From NCBI GenBank assembly GCA_020725555.1, contig DYEU01000010.1, forward strand, positions 1 to 64,000: DNA of 64,000 nt, read 5' to 3'. The translations under genes were made by a program, and so were the position numbers. Below, piece by piece: positions 6,838-26,089 of this stretch (positions within the stretch are counted from its first letter, which is position 1; each line of letters opens with the position of its first letter). Source of the stretch: Desulfatibacillum sp. GTDB lineage: Bacteria > Desulfobacterota > Desulfobacteria > Desulfobacterales > SpSt-501. The notes beneath the pieces were generated by a model, which searched no databases, was not told where the DNA came from, and saw only the letters and a list, made by a program, of their open reading frames with translations.

Positions 6838-8204
6838 CGGGCGCCTCCGCGGGGGAAATAGAGCGAGCGCAGGACGTTGTAGAGGCCCAGGTAGGCCCCG
6901 GCGAGGATCAGCAGCCCGAGCGACAGGCGGAGAACATAGTAGGGCTGGATCTCGGGCAGCGTGCGGTAGAGGGTCTCCCCGTTGTACCACGCCTGGCCCT
7001 GGATCAGGCCGACGACGGTCAGCACCACGGCGAAACCGGTGATGCCGATCAGGACGAGCCAGTACTGCAGGTCGGCGAGAAAGCGGCTGAAGAGGGGCCG
7101 CCCCGTGATCCGCGGCAGGATGAAGTAGAGCCCGCCGAGGGCGGTCACGCCCGCGAAGCCCAGGACGCCGATGTGCGCATGGCCGACCACCCAGTTGTTG
7201 TAGTGGGTGATCCGCTGCACGTCGGGCAGGGCCATCATGGACCCCTGGATGTTCACGAAAAAGTAGTAGATCGTCCCGGTGAAGACGAACTTCGCGCCGA
7301 TGTCCGCGTGGATCTCGCCGAGCTTGCCCTTGACCGTGTACCAGATGTTGATCAGGAAGACCATGACCGGGATCACCATGGCGACGCTGTCCACGATGGA
7401 GATCGTCTTCAACCAGGTGGGGACCGGCGTCTGCAGCAGGTGGTGGGTGCCGATGTGGGTGTAGACGACGATGAGGGACCAGAAGCCGAGAAGCGAAAGC
7501 GTGTGGCTGTAAAGGGGGCTGCGCGTCGCGATCGGCAGGACGTAGTAGGCCACCCCCAGGGCGAGCGGCGAAAGGAGGAGCCCGAAGACGTTGTGGCCGT
7601 AAAACCAGAGGAGAATCGCATCCGGAATGCCCTTCAGCGCGCCGGTGTCCGGCTTCCAGACGACGTTGCCGAGGGCGTAGGTGCAGGCGGTGAGCACGAC
7701 GGCGGCGGCCGCATACCAGATCGAGACGTAGAGCACGGGCTCGGTGCGCCGCCGGACGGTGAGGAGCAGGTTGGCGATCACCAGCCCGAAGGCGGCGATG
7801 ATCAGGAGGTCCGCCGCCCAGGGGAGCTCGGCGTACTCCCGGCCCTGGCTGTAGCCGAGCGAGACCCCCGCCAGCCCGGCGGCGAGGGCCGCGTTCCAGA
7901 AGCAGGCCGAGAAGACCCCGAGGGACTCGCTGAACAGCGGCGTCCGCAGCAGGCGGGGCACGAAGTAGAAGGCCGCGGCGAGCAGCCCCGGGGTCACGAA
8001 GCCGAAGAGGACGGCGTTCACGTGCATCGGCCGCACCCGGCCGAAGTGGATGTATTCCACGTTCGCCAGGAAGTCGGGGGCGATCAGGTAGCCGGCGGCG
8101 AGCATCCCGAAGCTCGTCGCCAGGGCGAACCACAGGGCCGAGGTCAGCGCGAAGGCGCGCGCGGTGCGGTCGGCGTGGACGATGGCGGCTTCGGCGGCCT
8201 TCAC
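6828..8204 (-). CDS. ccoN: cbb3-type cytochrome c oxidase catalytic subunit I (CcoN)
   Basis: 458-residue polytopic haem-copper oxidase subunit that reduces O2 to water and pumps protons. Conserved His ligands are visible: RPMHVNAVLFG for the low-spin haem, YGHNVFG and YTHIGTHH for CuB, and VGHAHIG for the haems. The GTG start has a GGAGGAAA site 9 bases upstream. The neighbour ccoO proves cbb3 rather than nitric-oxide reductase. It follows the alternative complex III genes after only 34 bases, so quinol oxidation and O2 reduction are probably co-expressed from one promoter. Confidence 0.94.
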   Translation of the reverse strand: MKAAEAAIVHADRTARAFALTSALWFALATSFGMLAAGYLIAPDFLANVEYIHFGRVRPMHVNAVLFGFVTPGLLAAAFYFVPRLLRTPLFSESLGVFSACFWNAALAAGLAGVSLGYSQGREYAELPWAADLLIIAAFGLVIANLLLTVRRRTEPVLYVSIWYAAAAVVLTACTYALGNVVWKPDTGALKGIPDAILLWFYGHNVFGLLLSPLALGVAYYVLPIATRSPLYSHTLSLLGFWSLIVVYTHIGTHHLLQTPVPTWLKTISIVDSVAMVIPVMVFLINIWYTVKGKLGEIHADIGAKFVFTGTIYYFFVNIQGSMMALPDVQRITHYNNWVVGHAHIGVLGFAGVTALGGLYFILPRITGRPLFSRFLADLQYWLVLIGITGFAVVLTVVGLIQGQAWYNGETLYRTLPEIQPYYVLRLSLGLLILAGAYLGLYNVLRSLYFPRGGARCA

Positions 8205-11833: not shown

Positions 11834-14782
11834 TCATGCCTCCTCCGTCACCTTCTTCAGGTAGATCACCGCGGGCTTGGTGTTCAGGTAGCCGAGCACC
11901 TGGTAGGCCCGCGGGTCGTCGCACAACCGCCGCACGCGGCTGTCGGGGTCCATGAGGTTGCCGAACACGAGCGCCTCGGTGGGGCAGGTCTGGACGCAGG
12001 CGGGCACCACCTCCCCCTCGCGGATCGGCCGCCCCCGGTTGCGCGCCGCCGTGCGCGCCTCCTTGATGCGCTGGACGCAGAAGGAGCATTTCTCCATGAC
12101 CCCCTTGCTGCGCACGGTGACGTCGGGGTTGAGCTGCAGGGGAAGCGGGTCGGGCCAGTTCCAGTCGAACCAGTTGAAGCGGCGCACCTTGTAGGGGCAG
12201 TTTTGCGAGCAGAAGCGCGTCCCGATGCAGCGGTTGTAGATCTGGTTGTTCAACCCCTCGGCGGAGTGGTGCGGCGCATAGACGGGGCAGACCGATTCGC
12301 AGGGCGCGTTGTCGCAGTGCTGGCAGAGCATGGGGAGGAAGAAGACCCGTTCCCGGTGCCGCTCGTCGTGGTAGCGCACGATCTCGAGCCAGGCCATCTC
12401 GCGGCCGCGGGCGACGGCCGCCTCGCCCACGACGGCGATGTTGTTTTCGGCATAGCAGGCGGCGACGCAGGCGGCGCAGCCGATGCAGCGGTCGAGATCC
12501 ACCACCATCCCCCAGCGGTTCTCGGCATGGTCGTGGGGGGGGTAGAAATCCCGCCGGGGGTCGTAGCCCTCGGGGAGCGGAAGCGTGAGGGGGAAATCGT
12601 GGAGCGTGAGCCCCGCCTTGCGGGGGGGGCCCCCGCCCCGCAGCGCGGCCAGGGTCGCGGTGCGCACGAGGCCGCGGTCGAGCTGGGTGCGGCTGCCGTC
12701 GGTGCGCGCCAGCAGGACCCGCCGCCCCGTTCTCTCGAGCCCCACCCGGCAAAGCCCCTCGGCCGGCCCCCCGCACAGGGGTTCGAGGCGCGGGGAAAGA
12801 AGCCGCCAGGGGTTGGCGCCCCGGCCCTCGGCGTAGCGGCCGTAGGCGTCGTGTCCCTGGCCGACGGCGAAGACGGCCAGGCCGGGGACGACGGTCTCGG
12901 TCGGGTAGACGGGGGCCTCGAGGGCTCCGGCGGCGGTGACGAGCCGGGCGAGGTCGGCTTCCTCGAGCCCGTGGGCGCGCGCGGTTTCGGGGTGCAGGCA
13001 GACCGGCGTCCGCCAGGCAACACGGGTCAGCGGGTCGGGAATCTCGCACAGCCACGGCCGGTTCGCCCCGCGGCCGTCGAAGAGGCGGATCGAGGGAACG
13101 GCGGCGAGCAGGGGGCCGCCCTCCGGCGGAAGCGGCAGGGCCCGGCGCAGGGCCTCGGGCAGCCGCTCCGGCGGGTTCGCGGGGGGGGCGCCGGAGGGGG
13201 CGCCCGGCGGGGGGAAGAGCCCCCCCTGCTGGAGCAGCCGCGGCCAGTCGGCGGCGGCCTTCAGCCGCCCCTCGGCGTAGAGCCGGCCGGCGATGAAGCT
13301 GCGGTAATCGGGGGCGGGCTTTTCGCCCTCGGGGAAGCCGACCGCGAGGATGAAATCCCCGAGGTTGGGCGCCGCGGTGAATTTCCCGGCCGCCGGCTGC
13401 AGGCTCGAAAGGAGCGGGTCCCAGCCGTTGTAGTCGTCCCAGGACTCGAGGGCATGGGCGAGCGGGAAGACCAGGTCGGCCGCCTGCGCCGTCTCGTCGA
13501 GAAAGCCGCCGAGGGAGACGACCCAGGCGTCGGGCCGCGCCATTGCCTCGCGCACGCCCGCCGCGGCCGGGAGGTGAAAGAGGGGGTTCACCTGGTTCAG
13601 GATCAGGACCTCGGCCCGTCCCGCGGCCAGGTCCTCGAAGAGGCCCATGACCTCGGCCCGGGGCCGGGCGATCTCGACCCGGTGGCGGTTGACGGCGTCG
13701 ACCCGCGCCAGCCCGGGGTCGAGCATGCGCTGCAGGAGGTTCGCCGCGAGGTTGGCCCGCAGGCCGTTCTCGTCGTTTTGCCACATGCCGGCGCCCAGAA
13801 CGAGCGGCCGCTCGGCCGCGGCGAGCCGCCGCGCGAGCTCTTCCAGGCGCGCCGCCGGGATCCCGGCGACCTGCTCCACCCGGGAAAACGGCACCGCGGC
13901 CGTCGCCTGCTCGATCTCCCGCCGCAACCCCTCCGGCAGGTGCCGGCCGCGGCCGAGGCCGAGCAGGCGGCCGGCCAGTCCGAGGGCGACCCAGGACTCG
14001 GCGCCGGGCCGGCAGGCGTACCAGCGGTCGGCGTTGGCGCCGGTGAGCGAGAGAAAGGGGCTGACCTGGAGAAACGCGCCCTTGCCCTCCCCCCGGACGG
14101 CGTGCATGGCCTTGAACTTCCAGGCGTACTCCACCGGGGAGAGCCAGGTCTCCAGGAACTCGGCGCCGAAGCCGAGCACGAGGTCGGCTTCCTCGAGGCG
14201 GTAGGAGACGAGCCCTTCCACGCCGAAGACCTCGCGGTTGGCGGCCCGCAGGGCCTCGTAGGCGTAAGGCTCGTAGATCACCGGCCCGGCGGCGTTCCAG
14301 TTGCCGAGGGCGGCCCGCATGAGGGCGAGGGCGCTTTGGCCGACCACCTCGCTGAGGATCCGCACCCGGCCCTCCCCCCGGCGCGCGGCCTCCCGCACGC
14401 GCGCGGCGATGAGTTCCAGGGCGCGGTCGCGCGAAAGGGGCACCCACCGGCCCTCCTCCTTGAGGAGGGGGGTGGTCAGCCGGTCGGGGTGATAGAGCGC
14501 CTGCACGGCGGCCTGGCCCCGCAAGCAGAGCTTGCCGCGGTTGAGCGGGTGGAGGGGGTTGCCTTCCACCTTGATCACCCGGCCCTCGCGGTTCTTGGCG
14601 ATCAGGCCGCACCCCGCGGGGCACTCGCGGCAGGTGGAGGCATACCAGGTGGGCCGGCCGGTGACCTGGTCCCCGGTCGCCTGCGGCGGGCCGTAGAGAA
14701 ATTGCGGCGCCTCGGGGCTGCAGGCGGCGGCGAAGGCGACGCTGCCGAGCCCGGCCACCTGGAGAAAACGGCGTCGGTTCAT
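11834..14782 (-). CDS. actB: Alternative complex III Fe-S/molybdopterin-fold subunit ActB
   Basis: 982 residues. The start chosen is the ATG at 14782, which gives a signal starting NRRRFLQVAGLG with Cys21 in a lipobox-like spot, suggesting Tat export. The N-terminal two-thirds has the molybdopterin-oxidoreductase fold and keeps a ferredoxin-like motif C51-x2-C54-x3-C58-x27-C86. The C-terminal third has four Fe-S cluster motifs (CIGCAACVAAC, CQHCDNAPCESVC, CIGTRFCSQNC, CSFC...CVQTC), arranged as in the HybA/NrfC/PsrB family. This fusion is diagnostic for ActB of the CISM superfamily. First gene of the 12-gene operon. Confidence 0.92.
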   Translation of the reverse strand: MNRRRFLQVAGLGSVAFAAACSPEAPQFLYGPPQATGDQVTGRPTWYASTCRECPAGCGLIAKNREGRVIKVEGNPLHPLNRGKLCLRGQAAVQALYHPDRLTTPLLKEEGRWVPLSRDRALELIAARVREAARRGEGRVRILSEVVGQSALALMRAALGNWNAAGPVIYEPYAYEALRAANREVFGVEGLVSYRLEEADLVLGFGAEFLETWLSPVEYAWKFKAMHAVRGEGKGAFLQVSPFLSLTGANADRWYACRPGAESWVALGLAGRLLGLGRGRHLPEGLRREIEQATAAVPFSRVEQVAGIPAARLEELARRLAAAERPLVLGAGMWQNDENGLRANLAANLLQRMLDPGLARVDAVNRHRVEIARPRAEVMGLFEDLAAGRAEVLILNQVNPLFHLPAAAGVREAMARPDAWVVSLGGFLDETAQAADLVFPLAHALESWDDYNGWDPLLSSLQPAAGKFTAAPNLGDFILAVGFPEGEKPAPDYRSFIAGRLYAEGRLKAAADWPRLLQQGGLFPPPGAPSGAPPANPPERLPEALRRALPLPPEGGPLLAAVPSIRLFDGRGANRPWLCEIPDPLTRVAWRTPVCLHPETARAHGLEEADLARLVTAAGALEAPVYPTETVVPGLAVFAVGQGHDAYGRYAEGRGANPWRLLSPRLEPLCGGPAEGLCRVGLERTGRRVLLARTDGSRTQLDRGLVRTATLAALRGGGPPRKAGLTLHDFPLTLPLPEGYDPRRDFYPPHDHAENRWGMVVDLDRCIGCAACVAACYAENNIAVVGEAAVARGREMAWLEIVRYHDERHRERVFFLPMLCQHCDNAPCESVCPVYAPHHSAEGLNNQIYNRCIGTRFCSQNCPYKVRRFNWFDWNWPDPLPLQLNPDVTVRSKGVMEKCSFCVQRIKEARTAARNRGRPIREGEVVPACVQTCPTEALVFGNLMDPDSRVRRLCDDPRAYQVLGYLNTKPAVIYLKKVTEEA

Positions 14783-14961
14783 GGCGTCCACGGGTCCCGG
14801 ATCCGTTTCAGGCCCCGGCGACCGGGATGCGGGTGGGGCGGGGAGTCCCGCCCGGGGAAGAGGAACGATGCGGACGCTGCATACCGCCTGGGAGGACGTT
14901 GGGGGTTTTCCGGGAACGGGGGCGCAAGGCCGCACGGCGCACCCGCTCCGGCTGTAAGGGT

Positions 14962-17600: not shown

Positions 17601-17900
17601 ATGAGCGTGATCGTCGATTTTTCGCTCTTTCCCCTCGACAAGGGGGAAAGCCTCAGCCCCTACGTGGCCCGTTCCCTGCGCATCATCCGGGAAAGCGGCC
17701 TGCCCCACGATTTCCGGGCCATGGGCACGAGCATCGAGGGCGAGTGGGACGAGGTCCTGGAGGTGGTGCGGCGCTGCGTCGAGGCCATGCGCGCGGACTG
17801 CAACCGCGTGGTCCTTACCCTGAAAGCCGACATCCGCCGGGGCCCCGGCGGCCGGCTGCAGCGCAAGGTGGAATCGGTCCATGAAAAGCTCCGATCCTGA
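17601..17900 (+). CDS. MTH1187-family (thiamine-binding-like) protein
   Basis: 99 residues with the ferredoxin-like fold signature of the MTH1187/YkoF family: opening VIVDFSLFPLDKGESLSPYVA and the central MGTSIEGEWDEV are hallmarks. Members form tetramers and some bind thiamine, but the cellular role is not settled. A GGAGGT site precedes the ATG. The last 20 bases overlap the start of the molybdopterin oxidoreductase gene, so translation is coupled. No TPP riboswitch was seen upstream. Confidence 0.88.
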   Translation: MSVIVDFSLFPLDKGESLSPYVARSLRIIRESGLPHDFRAMGTSIEGEWDEVLEVVRRCVEAMRADCNRVVLTLKADIRRGPGGRLQRKVESVHEKLRS

Positions 17901-19815
17901 GGGGTTCCGCCGCACCGCCTGCACCTGCGACTGCCCCGACGCCTGCGCGCTGCGACTGGAAGCCCTGCCCGGAGGCGGCTTCCGGGTGCGCGGGGACCCG
18001 GACAGCCCGTTTACGCGGGGTGCGGCCTGCGCCAAGATCCGGCGCCACCTGCGGCGGCTGAACCACCCGGCCCGCATCCTCGCCCCGCGCCTCAAGACCG
18101 CCCGCGGCTGGCGCGACATCGGCTGGGAGGAGGCGCTCGATCGCGCCGCGGAGGCCATCCAGTCCCTGCGGCGGGAGCCCGCCGCCATCCTGCACATCGC
18201 CGGCGACGGGGCCAAGGGCGTCCTCAAGGAGGCGGTGAACCTCTTTTTCGCCGCGCTGGGGGCAAGCCGCACGCGGGGCTCGCTGTGCGACGCGGCGGGC
18301 TACGTCGCCGGCGTTCTCGACTTCGGCTCGCGCGAAAACAACGACATCGAGGAACTCGCCCGGGCGCGCTCGATCACCCTCTGGGGAAAGGACCTGCAGC
18401 GGAGCTCCCTTCACACGGCCTCCCTGGTGCATCGCGCCCGCCGCGCCGGGGCCGAGGTCGTCTCCATCTCGCCGCAGGGGGAGGAAAACCGCCCCTTCGC
18501 CGACCGCAGGATCCGCATCCGGCCCGGGGGCGACCGCTTCCTCGCCGCCGCCGTCCTGAGACGGCTCCTCGAGGAGGGGGCGCTCCCGGAGGAGCGCTTC
18601 GCCTGCACCCGCGGCGGGGAGGCCTTCCGGCGGGTGCTCGCCGGCCGCACAACGGCGGAGTGGCTCGCCGCCTGCGATGTCCCGCCGGAGGAGGCCGAGG
18701 CCCTCGCGCGCCTCTACCGCGACGGGGGCCCCGTCGCCACGGTGATCGGCGCCGGGCTGCAGCGCGGTCTCCACGGCGGCGAGGCCGTGCGGTGGATCGA
18801 CGCGCTTGCCGTGCTGACCGGGAACCTCGGCCGCGCGGGCGCCGGGGTCTATTTTCACCTCCATTCCTTCCACAACCTGGAGCTCGGCTGGACCCGGGGA
18901 CCGGGTCCAGGGCGCCGCCGGGCGTTTCCGATCGCGGACATCGGCGGCGCGATCCTCGCCGCCGCCGACCCGCCCGTGCGGCTTCTCTGGGTGAACGGCT
19001 GCAACATCGTCAACCAGGCGCCCGACAGCGAACGGACGGCCGCGGCCTTCTCCCGCGTCGGCTTCACGATCGTCGTGGACGCCTTCCCCACGGACACCGC
19101 CGAACGGGCCGACCTCGTTCTCCCCTGCACGCTGATGTTCGAGCAGGAAGACGTTGTCGGATCCTTCCTCCATGAGTATGTTCAACACGCCGCGGCCGTC
19201 ATCGCGCCTCCCCCCGGCGTCCGGGACGACTACACGATCGTCCGCGAGATCGCCCGGCGCCTCGACCCGCCGGTTCCGCTTCCCGAGCCGGAGGAATGCC
19301 TGCGGGCGGCGCTGCGCTCCCCGTGGCTCGAGACGAGCCTCGAGGAGTTGCGCGCGCGCGGGGCCGTGCGCTCCCGGCGGCCGGCGATCGCCTACGAGGG
19401 GCTGCGCTTCGCCCATCCCGACGGCAAATGCCGCCTGCCCGCGGCGATCCACGACGAGGAGCCTGCGCCGGCGGGCTACCCGCTGCGGCTGCTCAGCCTG
19501 GTGCGCGGGGGGGCGATCCACTCGCAGATGCTCCCCGAGGAGCAGGAGATCCCGCCCGCGGCGTGGATCGCGCCGGAGAGCCCGGGGCTCGCGGGGATCG
19601 ACTCCGAGCGGCCGGTCGCGCTCGTCTCCCCGCTGGGGCGGATGCCCGTGCGGCTGCGGCGGCTCGCGGGGCTGCACCCGGAGGCCGTCGTGGTCCGGCG
19701 GGGGACCTGGATGCGCCTGGGCGGGGGGATCAACCGCCTGATCGCCGCCCGCGTGACCGACATCGGCGGGGGAGCCGCGTTTTACGCGCAGTTCGTGCGC
19801 CTGGAGAACGATTGA
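17881..19815 (+). CDS. Molybdopterin-dependent oxidoreductase with one N-terminal [4Fe-4S] cluster
   Basis: 644 residues, DMSO-reductase superfamily. The N-terminal cluster motif is C14-x3-C18-x3-C22-x27-C50, with an extra Cys16. Then come the MGD-binding domains (for example WGKDLQRSSL near residue 170 and WVNGCNIVNQAPDSE near 375) and a C-terminal beta-barrel domain from about 540. No Tat or Sec signal is visible, so it should be cytoplasmic. It is short for the family and has no obvious Fe-S or membrane partner gene; its neighbours are a cupin and a flavoprotein. Substrate unknown; sulfur compounds are a guess from the cysteine-dioxygenase-like neighbour. Confidence 0.88.
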   Translation: MKSSDPEGFRRTACTCDCPDACALRLEALPGGGFRVRGDPDSPFTRGAACAKIRRHLRRLNHPARILAPRLKTARGWRDIGWEEALDRAAEAIQSLRREPAAILHIAGDGAKGVLKEAVNLFFAALGASRTRGSLCDAAGYVAGVLDFGSRENNDIEELARARSITLWGKDLQRSSLHTASLVHRARRAGAEVVSISPQGEENRPFADRRIRIRPGGDRFLAAAVLRRLLEEGALPEERFACTRGGEAFRRVLAGRTTAEWLAACDVPPEEAEALARLYRDGGPVATVIGAGLQRGLHGGEAVRWIDALAVLTGNLGRAGAGVYFHLHSFHNLELGWTRGPGPGRRRAFPIADIGGAILAAADPPVRLLWVNGCNIVNQAPDSERTAAAFSRVGFTIVVDAFPTDTAERADLVLPCTLMFEQEDVVGSFLHEYVQHAAAVIAPPPGVRDDYTIVREIARRLDPPVPLPEPEECLRAALRSPWLETSLEELRARGAVRSRRPAIAYEGLRFAHPDGKCRLPAAIHDEEPAPAGYPLRLLSLVRGGAIHSQMLPEEQEIPPAAWIAPESPGLAGIDSERPVALVSPLGRMPVRLRRLAGLHPEAVVVRRGTWMRLGGGINRLIAARVTDIGGGAAFYAQFVRLEND

Positions 19816-19844
19816 CGAGGCGCCCCCGCGGGGGCCGAGAGCAC

Positions 19845-20489
19845 ATGCCGGAGCGAAACGAGACCGAAACCGCCGTCACCGCCCTCTGCCGCCGCTGGTC
19901 CCGCGAGGCGACCCCCCTAAAGGGCCCTGCGGCGCGCATGGCCTTTTTCCGCGACCGCCTGCCCGGGCTGCTGCGGGACCGGACGCTCTGGCGGGGGATC
20001 CTCGCCGAACTCGCCGGGGGGGGGACCGCGGGAGAAGGCCGCGGGGAGGCCATTTTCGAAAACGAGGTGGTGCTCTACCGCGACCCCGCGCGCGTCTTTT
20101 CGCTTCGCCTCTATCTCTTCGGCCCCGGCGACCGCACCCCGATCCACGACCACTCCTCCTGGGGCGTCTCGGGCCCGGCCCTCGGCGAACTCGAATGGGC
20201 GCCTTACCGCCTCGAGGCGCCGCCGGCCCGGCTTGCGGCGCTTCCGCCCCGCAGGCTCTCCCCGGGCGACGTCGCGACCACTCTCCCCCTCGAGGCGGGG
20301 ATCCACCGCACCGGCAGCCCGGGTCCCGGATCGGTCTTGATGGTGAGCGTCTACGGCACCCCGCTCAGGCGCCTCTTCCTCAACTTCTACGCACCCGAAG
20401 CGGAAACGGTGCGGCGGGTCTTTCCCGCCCGGCTCATGCGCAAACGGCTTGCCGCGAGGATGCTCGAGGAGTGGGGCTCCTCCGGCTGA
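19845..20489 (+). CDS. Cysteine-dioxygenase-like cupin
   Basis: 214 residues of the double-stranded beta-helix (cupin) fold. The metal triad typical of the cysteine/thiol dioxygenase family can be read as His101 and His103 (TPIHDHSSWG) and His154 (GIHRTGSPG). Family members oxidise cysteine or related thiols to sulfinates with Fe(II) and O2. The start at 19845 is chosen because it follows the upstream stop by 29 bases and begins the compact domain; the ribosome site is weak. Third gene of the cassette. Confidence 0.82.
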   Translation: MPERNETETAVTALCRRWSREATPLKGPAARMAFFRDRLPGLLRDRTLWRGILAELAGGGTAGEGRGEAIFENEVVLYRDPARVFSLRLYLFGPGDRTPIHDHSSWGVSGPALGELEWAPYRLEAPPARLAALPPRRLSPGDVATTLPLEAGIHRTGSPGPGSVLMVSVYGTPLRRLFLNFYAPEAETVRRVFPARLMRKRLAARMLEEWGSSG

Positions 20490-20515
20490 CCCCCTCGCCC
20501 GAAAGGAACCGCAGG

Positions 20516-21436
20516 ATGAACCCGCAAATCCCGCACGTCGACGTCGTCGTCATCGGAACCGGACCGGCCGGTCTGCAGGCCGCGATCCACGCCGCACGCC
20601 GCAAGGTCTCCGTGCTCGTCCTCGGCCGCCAAAGCGGCAGCAGCATCTACCACCACCACGTGGAGAACTACTGCTGCCTCTTCCCGACGACCGGCGAGGA
20701 CATCCTCGCCAACGGCCGCCGTCAGGCGGCCCACTTCGGCGCCGTGTTCCGCGACGAGGAGGTGCTCTCGATCGCGGCCGACGACGGCCGCTTCCGGCTC
20801 AGGCTCGAGGGCGGCGGCGAGGTCGTGGCCAAGGCGATCGTGCTCGCCACCGGCACCGCCCGCCGGAGCCTGGGGGTGGAGGGCGAAAAGCGCCTCCTCG
20901 GCCGCGGGGTGAGCTACTGCGTGGAATGCGACTGCAATTTCTTCCGCGGCGCCGAGGTGGCCGTGGTGGGCGGCGGCAGCGCCGCCGTGCACGGCGCGCT
21001 CGCGATGCTCGACTACGCCCGCAAGGTCCACCTCGTGTTCGAAACCCTCGAGACGGCCCCCGCCCTCGCCGAGGAGCTGCGCCGCAGCGCCGTCGTCCAG
21101 CACCCCGGCCGGCGCGTGACCGCGATCCTGGGCGAGGAGGCGGTGGAGGCGATCCAGCTGGACGACGGCGCGCGCCTCTCCGTCCAGGGGGTCTTCATCG
21201 AGCTCGGGGCCAGGGGGGTGCTCGAGCTCGCCGCCCCGCTCGGGGTCCTGCTGGACGACGAAATGAAACACATCCAGACCAACCGCCGCATGGAAACGAA
21301 CGTCCCGGGCATCTACGCCGCAGGGGACATCACCGGCCCCCCCTGGCAGGTGGCGAAGGCCGTGGGCGAGGGGTGCGTCGCCGGCCTCGAAGCCGCGGCC
21401 TACGCCCGCCGGCTCGCCGCCCCCGAGGGCGCCTGA
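20516..21436 (+). CDS. Thioredoxin-reductase-like FAD/NAD(P) oxidoreductase
   Basis: 306 residues with the two-dinucleotide-fold layout of thioredoxin reductase: FAD motif VVIGTGPAGLQAA (residues 10-23), redox-active CVEC at Cys135/Cys138 with an additional Cys140, NAD(P) motif VAVVGGGSAAVHGA, and the FAD-closing GIYAAGDITGPPWQ. The redox pair is CVEC rather than the usual CATC/CAVC, and the NAD(P) site lacks the HRR signature of NADPH enzymes. An AAAGGAA site precedes the ATG. Fourth gene of the cassette with the molybdoenzyme and cupin. Confidence 0.87.
   Translation: MNPQIPHVDVVVIGTGPAGLQAAIHAARRKVSVLVLGRQSGSSIYHHHVENYCCLFPTTGEDILANGRRQAAHFGAVFRDEEVLSIAADDGRFRLRLEGGGEVVAKAIVLATGTARRSLGVEGEKRLLGRGVSYCVECDCNFFRGAEVAVVGGGSAAVHGALAMLDYARKVHLVFETLETAPALAEELRRSAVVQHPGRRVTAILGEEAVEAIQLDDGARLSVQGVFIELGARGVLELAAPLGVLLDDEMKHIQTNRRMETNVPGIYAAGDITGPPWQVAKAVGEGCVAGLEAAAYARRLAAPEGA

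Positions 21437-23863: not shown

Positions 23864-26089
<2,226 letters not shown>

Follow-up and report, generated by a model that had tools for sequence, protein, structure and literature searches.

What do four closely packed redox genes of a Desulfatibacillum sp. do, and do they act as one unit? The question is raised by a stretch of 64,000 nucleotides (GenBank assembly GCA_020725555.1, contig DYEU01000010.1, positions 1 to 64,000 of the forward strand; hereafter the window), in which four adjoining open reading frames (ORFs) of the plus strand encode a small protein of the MTH1187 family (gene A), a molybdoenzyme of the MopB family (gene B), a cupin with the thiol-dioxygenase fold (gene C) and a TRi-like flavoprotein (gene D). 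Genes A and B overlap by 20 bases, and gaps of 29 and 26 bases separate B from C and C from D. This layout agrees with a preliminary description of the locus, which had reported an overlap of the first two genes and spacings within 30 bases for the rest, and the identities it had given to the four products were upheld by family models, PDB profile and fold. The same description had taken the four genes for one unit. Judging from gene neighbourhoods in related genomes, however, the four genes are not one equal cassette: B and C form the working core, a two-enzyme unit that is conserved in Desulfobacterota.

Named genomes were scanned with one pattern containing HDH and WGV. The scan, which is not exhaustive, returned 51 loci, of which seven partial and distant ones (L069-L075) were set aside and 44 were used; the nearest named relatives at the locus were metagenome-assembled genomes (MAGs) of Desulfobacterales and Deltaproteobacteria. 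At 30 of the 44 loci a molybdoenzyme gene lay directly upstream of the cupin gene and in the same orientation; frame changes break it in L032 and L052, and the contig end cuts it in L062. MTH1187 was found at only four loci (L025, L026, L027 and L052) and an intact flavoprotein gene adjoining the cupin at only three (L025, L026 and L029), counts that are lower bounds, as some contig stretches stop near the cupin (in L039, 410 bases upstream). Linkage of all four genes outside the window, on which the preliminary description had staked its view, was found by the neighbourhood scan, the full order recurring in L025 and L026. Only the molybdoenzyme and the cupin are widely conserved together, and the distribution across the 44 loci rules out an obligate four-gene pathway; MTH1187 and the flavoprotein are, as far as the compared loci tell, lineage-specific additions. 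The carriers of the pair include Desulfoferrobacter suflitae DRH4 (L045) and Desulforhabdus sp. TSK (L060), which constitute a direct test set. In L056 and L058, genes for flavodoxin-like and rubrerythrin/ferritin-like proteins precede the pair (tested against Pfam in L058).

Two genome surveys, which partly overlap with the named loci and are not independent of them, gave a similar picture. The cupin was present in 16 of 96 genomes of the order, that of the window included, and the molybdoenzyme lay directly upstream in 14 of them; the exceptions were G004, in which 20 kb around the locus contained no such gene, and G085, whose sequence stops about 400 bases upstream of the cupin. An even sample of 297 Desulfobacterota genomes contained 15 cupin carriers, one of which (G127) is a weak match with an internal stop. 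In this sample the six top-scoring molybdoenzyme genes (1024-1135 bits) all adjoin a cupin and those at or below 1001 bits do not, a split favoured by the profile itself, which was built mostly from cupin-linked molybdoenzymes. In a tree obtained by a quick search, 30 cupin-linked molybdoenzymes were separated from 22 unlinked ones by a single branch (Shimodaira-Hasegawa-like approximate likelihood ratio test, SH-aLRT, 98). The linked rows comprised 24 of the 30 named linked loci, the window and five rows from the genome sample; linked L030, L032, L036, L052, L056 and L062 and unlinked L100, L102 and L104 were left out, and three identical pairs were included.

The molybdoenzyme is not the only partner of the cupin. 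At eight of the 44 named loci its place directly before the cupin is taken by a 4Fe-4S protein resembling QueG and reductive dehalogenases; neither partner was seen at six loci, which is no proof of absence where contigs end close by, and close copies of both at none. L120 and G331 (L123) have the QueG-like gene, and L051 has a weak general QueG match downstream of the cupin (29%, E 3e-6). The L044 protein matched TIGR00276 (E 1.7e-14) and the reductive dehalogenase 8q4h (E 2e-10), and its score lay below the QueG cut-off (53.6 versus 200 bits). One partner or the other accompanied the cupin in 13 of the 15 sampled carriers, six having an adjacent molybdoenzyme and seven an adjacent QueG-like gene; G164 had neither, and G127 stood outside the QueG-like search, which covered the other 14 cupin carriers and no genome lacking the cupin. 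Close QueG-like copies (E 2e-97 or better) occurred in seven of these 14, where the coordinates place each immediately before the cupin, and none was found in the six molybdoenzyme-carrying genomes. In a tree of 50 cupins the two kinds of pairing interleave, at least five changes being forced for the molybdoenzyme label, and the most divergent branch (L120, L121, L122 and L124) is QueG-paired. With the root placed at the midpoint, a QueG-paired ancestor that later switched to the molybdoenzyme is a reasonable reading of these sequences. The literature search returned, among the matches listed, no description of this gene combination, in line with the preliminary description, which had known of no named pathway containing it. 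The molybdoenzyme-cupin pair is a real conserved enzyme pair for which we found no description, and its swapped partner is of more interest than the four-gene cassette.

What the fixed member of the pair might do was approached through its fold and conserved residues. Gene C (19845-20489, 214 amino acids) has no Pfam match, and PF05995 was detected neither in its product nor anywhere in the host genome. The protein nevertheless matched 4qma in the PDB by sequence (E 2.8e-13), and its AlphaFold model (pLDDT, the predicted local confidence score, 90.8) was closest to 6xb9 (Z 18.2, rmsd 2.8 over 171 residues), 4qma (18.1) and 4tlf (17.8). The 3-mercaptopropionate and cysteine dioxygenases gave Z values of 15.5-18.2, among them rat and human cysteine dioxygenase (CDO) at about 16; mercaptosuccinate dioxygenase 8vni scored 16.2 and was also a profile match (E 7.3e-10). 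The sequence match to 4qma and the fold match to 6xb9 support the earlier designation as a thiol-dioxygenase-like cupin. A three-histidine iron site is predicted from His101-Asp-His103 (20145-20153), which aligns with the HDH of 3uss, and His154 (20304-20306); all three histidines are kept in 50 of 50 cupins. As 44 of these were found through a pattern holding His-Asp-His and the following WGV, it should be added that His154, Glu74 and Tyr170 are independent of that pattern.

Glu74 (20064-20066), a glutamate in all 50 cupins, occupies by profile alignment the position of Arg60 in CDO and of Gln63 in Av3MDO; in chain 6xb9 its counterpart is index 63, and profile position 75 pairs with index 64. 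In the relevant part of one account, Gln63 distinguishes the Gln type, and the carboxylate-binding arginine of 3-mercaptopropionate dioxygenase (MDO) is relocated to position 168 (PMC8050391). Of the Ser-His-Tyr (SHY) motif, the window protein (M-S-Y) retains only Tyr170 (20352-20354), which is invariant among the 50 cupins, the histidine being kept in four. Arg88 is kept in 46 and Arg176 in 47, and conservation as a whole centres on the predicted metal site and the pocket. Three of 15 relatives gave weak PF05995 matches (best E 5.7e-4) and five of 15 weak PCO_ADO matches (best E 0.0025). The fold and metal site make the protein thiol-dioxygenase-like, and the second sphere points to a different substrate or chemistry; on its sequence it is not an ordinary CDO or MDO and was not filed as one. 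The thiol or sulfinate substrate suggested earlier is plausible but no more than a proposal, as Glu74 and the SHY positions differ from those of the characterised small-molecule thiol dioxygenases compared.

The partner in the window, gene B (17881-19815, 644 amino acids), is a molybdopterin oxidoreductase by family models: PF00384 scored 109 bits (cut-off 24), PF04879 33.3 bits, above its cut-off, and PF01568 25.8 bits, just under its cut-off of 26.8. The model (pLDDT 88.2) superposed over about 620 residues on formate dehydrogenase 8j83 (Z 34.0) and NapA 2nap (Z 33.8), rows tied within 1 Z, and a profile search of the PDB with the molybdoenzyme alignment gave no match at E 1e-60. The preliminary description had called it a molybdoenzyme without Fe-S or membrane partner. 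No partner subunit gene adjoins it, but it has a 4Fe-4S motif of its own, Cys14-x3-Cys18-x3-Cys22-x27-Cys50 (17920-18030), invariant in all 26 aligned rows and covered by the PF04879 match. Cys136-Asp137 (18286-18291) aligns with the Cys-His of formate dehydrogenase chains 7vw6 and 7bkb; the cysteine is invariant in the 26 rows, the aspartate nearly so, and from this alignment Cys136 would be the molybdenum ligand. By sequence and model, gene B is thus a complete protein of the MopB fold that has a 4Fe-4S motif and, at the molybdenum-ligand position, a cysteine. Inspection by eye revealed no N-terminal signal sequence, so the enzyme is probably cytoplasmic. A paralogue with 51% identity (L076:6748-10912, G000 contig 22) lies between genes that look, by eye, like a saccharopine dehydrogenase and a class-V aminotransferase. 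Close homologues without an adjoining cupin exist, and ten regions around such unlinked genes, read by eye, revealed no consistent partner. Directly upstream of two homologues that branch beside the cupin-linked clade are genes of 231 and 234 amino acids (L109:5084-5779 and L110:7973-8677, in G242 and G264), which have no Pfam match and are not cupin-like by eye.

The reading we tentatively favour, at somewhat under even confidence, is that an interchangeable reductase and a fixed iron-cupin handle one small organosulfur metabolite in a coupled redox step. Through Fe(II), gene C would bind an organosulfur compound, such as a small thiol, that Glu74 and the conserved arginines would select, and it would oxidise this compound with O2 when O2 is present. 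The same compound, or the product of its oxidation, would be the target of gene B (in other lineages, of the QueG-like protein), which would most likely work reductively, with low-potential electrons entering by way of the Fe-S cluster. This scheme builds on the linkage, the exchange of partners, the conserved residues and the predicted folds, and from these we infer a common substrate, an iron-thiolate step and a low-potential reductive step. The exposure to O2 that it calls for is plausible in the host, which combines dsrA with a heme-copper oxidase, and the frequency of COX1 among cupin carriers (given below) speaks in its favour too. A further proposal, possible though doubtful, is that the cupins are a new Glu-type iron-cupin class performing one dedicated step with an exchangeable reductase, the QueG/reductive-dehalogenase-like (corrinoid-family) and molybdenum enzymes replacing each other between lineages because both carry out one and the same reduction of a single organosulfur metabolite of sulfate reducers and syntrophs. 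If true, two unrelated redox cofactor chemistries would be swapping beside a fixed iron-cupin, and their common reaction would be new for either; a molybdoenzyme clade that so far has no assigned role would also gain one, as would a protein of the thiol-dioxygenase fold in bacteria that are largely anaerobic.

Several points weigh against the coupled redox step. Its substrate, product, direction and O2 dependence are proposals drawn from comparison, and the cooperation of B and C is likewise putative. In G004 (L077:9651-11904) MTH1187, cupin and flavoprotein are retained with the molybdoenzyme missing between them; it is absent within 20 kb, the rest of that genome lying outside the search, so an adjacent molybdoenzyme gene is not needed for retention of the cupin. 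The weak PCO_ADO matches make the placement of the cupin among thiol oxidases provisional. The SHY motif is, in the portion of the source concerned, conserved in small-molecule thiol dioxygenases, and changes to it strongly impair known enzymes (PMC10966181); with Ser and His lost, dioxygenase activity of gene C is therefore uncertain. Finally, six of the 15 sampled cupin carriers have no COX1 match at E 1e-30 (bd-type oxidases were outside this search), so that O2 may be unavailable there.

These last points suit an enzyme that does not use O2 at all: in anaerobes, a Glu-type cupin that has lost dioxygenase chemistry would convert the substrate of the molybdenum or QueG-like reductase without oxidising it, by isomerisation, a lyase reaction or hydrolysis. 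Tyrosine as the only universal SHY residue, the universal Glu74, the QueG-paired most divergent cupin branch, the Syntrophaceae and Syntrophobacteraceae MAGs among the carriers and the six carriers without COX1 are all consistent with this. However, the three histidines, the tyrosine and the entire fold are retained, ADO and PCO also lack SHY and yet are dioxygenases according to the part of the source that treats them (PMC10966181), and COX1 is, if anything, commoner among carriers (9 of 15, versus 90 of 282 other genomes; Fisher p 0.045, not corrected for kinship). We regard this explanation as possible, though improbable.

Oxidative catabolism is an unlikely alternative, in which the cupin would oxidise a thiol to a sulfinate, sulfite would be released from it, and further oxidation of the sulfite or sulfinate would fall to the molybdoenzyme. 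The same two enzyme types, mercaptosuccinate dioxygenase and a putative molybdopterin oxidoreductase, were proposed to act in one pathway, that of mercaptosuccinate in Variovorax paradoxus B4, in the portion of the report bearing on it (PMC5373536), and 8vni is both a profile and a fold match of our cupin. The host genome (3.59 Mb, 35 contigs, completeness 100) speaks against it by carrying dsrA (623 bits, cut-off 393). A dsrA-bearing host is expected to reduce sulfite by Dsr. Replacement of the molybdoenzyme by a QueG/reductive-dehalogenase-like protein also fits a reductive step better, and in the relevant part of the report (PMC5373536) the msdo genes of Advenella and Variovorax had genes for rhodanese and cystathionine lyase in their clusters and none for a molybdoenzyme. 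The host genome also holds one heme-copper oxidase match, located inside the window (6915-8162, minus strand). By eye, an ActB-like subunit of alternative complex III is encoded at 11834-14935 on the minus strand, forming a respiratory cluster with this oxidase.

It is quite unlikely that the cupin is an accessory of the preceding redox enzyme, serving in metal or cofactor binding, assembly or redox sensing instead of catalysis. A varying partner beside a constant cupin could be understood in this way, but one accessory for two unrelated enzyme families would be unusual, the conserved positions gather around the predicted metal site and the pocket, and close molybdoenzyme homologues occur without an adjoining cupin.

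The flanking genes were considered last. Gene A (17601-17900, 99 amino acids) belongs to the MTH1187 family (Thiamine_BP, PF01910, 97.6 bits versus a cut-off of 24.9; TIGR00106, 79.4 versus 54.7), occurs also in G004 and would be an accessory in the proposed coupled redox step. Gene D (20516-21436, 306 amino acids) is a Pyr_redox_2/thioredoxin reductase-like protein (128 bits, cut-off 26.1), and its best PDB match was 5nii (E 1.1e-49), which we take to be the D. vulgaris TRi (DvTRi). Its CVECDC centre (20918-20935), aligned over eight rows, confirms the atypical centre reported earlier and comprises a redox-active CxxC (Cys135 and Cys138, both kept in all eight rows) and an extra Cys140 (3 of 8). 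The HRRD motif for NADPH is absent from gene D, and the TQ/NGK motif replacing it was seen by eye in none of the eight rows (A3 omits L136 and L137). A donor other than NAD(P)H is probably required, and gene D is not an obvious electron source for gene B; it might instead keep the thiol substrate or thioredoxin reduced. In L028, apparently the same locus as L013, an internal deletion has reduced the flavoprotein gene to an ORF of 110 residues. Of the 96 genomes of the order, 23 carry the family: 9 of the 16 with the cupin and 14 of the 80 without (kinship not corrected). By coordinates it adjoins the cupin in six. Electron delivery from flavoprotein to molybdoenzyme, as first suggested, is accordingly unlikely: the protein is part of a broader set of TRi-like flavoproteins that lack the NADPH motif, 14 of the 23 genomes carrying this set have no cupin, and most molybdoenzyme-cupin loci have no flavoprotein. 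One four-gene pathway fed in this manner is very improbable: it is favoured by the full order in L025 and L026 and by the commoner flavoprotein among cupin genomes, and opposed by the rarity of an intact flavoprotein beside the cupin, the single 110-residue remnant, the missing NADPH motif and the reduction of thioredoxin 1 by the D. vulgaris relative, as the portion concerned reports (PMC5627308). By eye, a KatG-type catalase-peroxidase gene lies near gene D (23864-26065, minus strand), and in another genome of the order (L137:283-1401) a TRi-like flavoprotein follows a methionine sulfoxide reductase-like gene.

A different kind of neighbour was noticed downstream of some cupins. An HgcA motif was found there in L043, L117 (the two seemingly one locus), L050 and L118, in L050 on the motif alone; hgcA was confirmed by family model for L117, G130 and G164, and hgcB too where tested. 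A link to mercury methylation was rejected, hgcA being not significantly enriched in cupin carriers (7 of 15, versus 80 of 282 others; Fisher p 0.15), and this adjacency is for that reason treated as local.

How, then, does the locus compare with known systems? With CDO and the 3-mercaptopropionate dioxygenases (CDO_I, PF05995) gene C shares the fold, the three histidine ligands and the tyrosine, and it differs in having Glu for Arg/Gln, in the lost Ser and His of SHY (window protein) and in matching no PF05995 model. Gene B resembles formate dehydrogenase FDH-H and NapA of the MopB/DMSO (dimethyl sulfoxide) reductase superfamily in its full-length fold (Z 33-34), 4Fe-4S motif and molybdenum-ligand cysteine, but departs from them in the Cys14-x3-Cys18 spacing, an identity of about 19-23% in structural alignments and scores far below the NCBIfam cut-offs. 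Formate dehydrogenases functionally need a histidine beside the metal, following the metal-binding Cys or Sec, whereas gene B has an aspartate there; the Cys-Asp pair and the Fdh-alpha score (146 versus an NCBIfam cut-off of 666 bits) argue against that identity, which was rejected. Gene D shares with DvTRi the CxxC, a degenerate pyrophosphate motif and the lack of HRRD. DvTRi is, according to its description, NAD(P)H-independent, reduces thioredoxin 1 once reduced by an artificial donor, carries TQ/NGK and is encoded by a monocistronic gene (PMC5627308); gene D has no TQ/NGK at the 2'-phosphate site, has CVEC with an extra cysteine and is adjacent to the cupin. Variovorax paradoxus B4 is an aerobe. 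Its pathway combines a thiol-dioxygenase cupin with a molybdopterin oxidoreductase, as our pair does, but serves the oxidative detoxification of sulfite, and the part of the account concerned describes no such gene pair (PMC5373536). The exchanged partner, in turn, is related to the QueG/reductive dehalogenase superfamily through the TIGR00276 and 8q4h matches of the L044 protein and is set apart by its QueG score below the cut-off and by its adjacency to the cupin in all seven carriers with a close copy.

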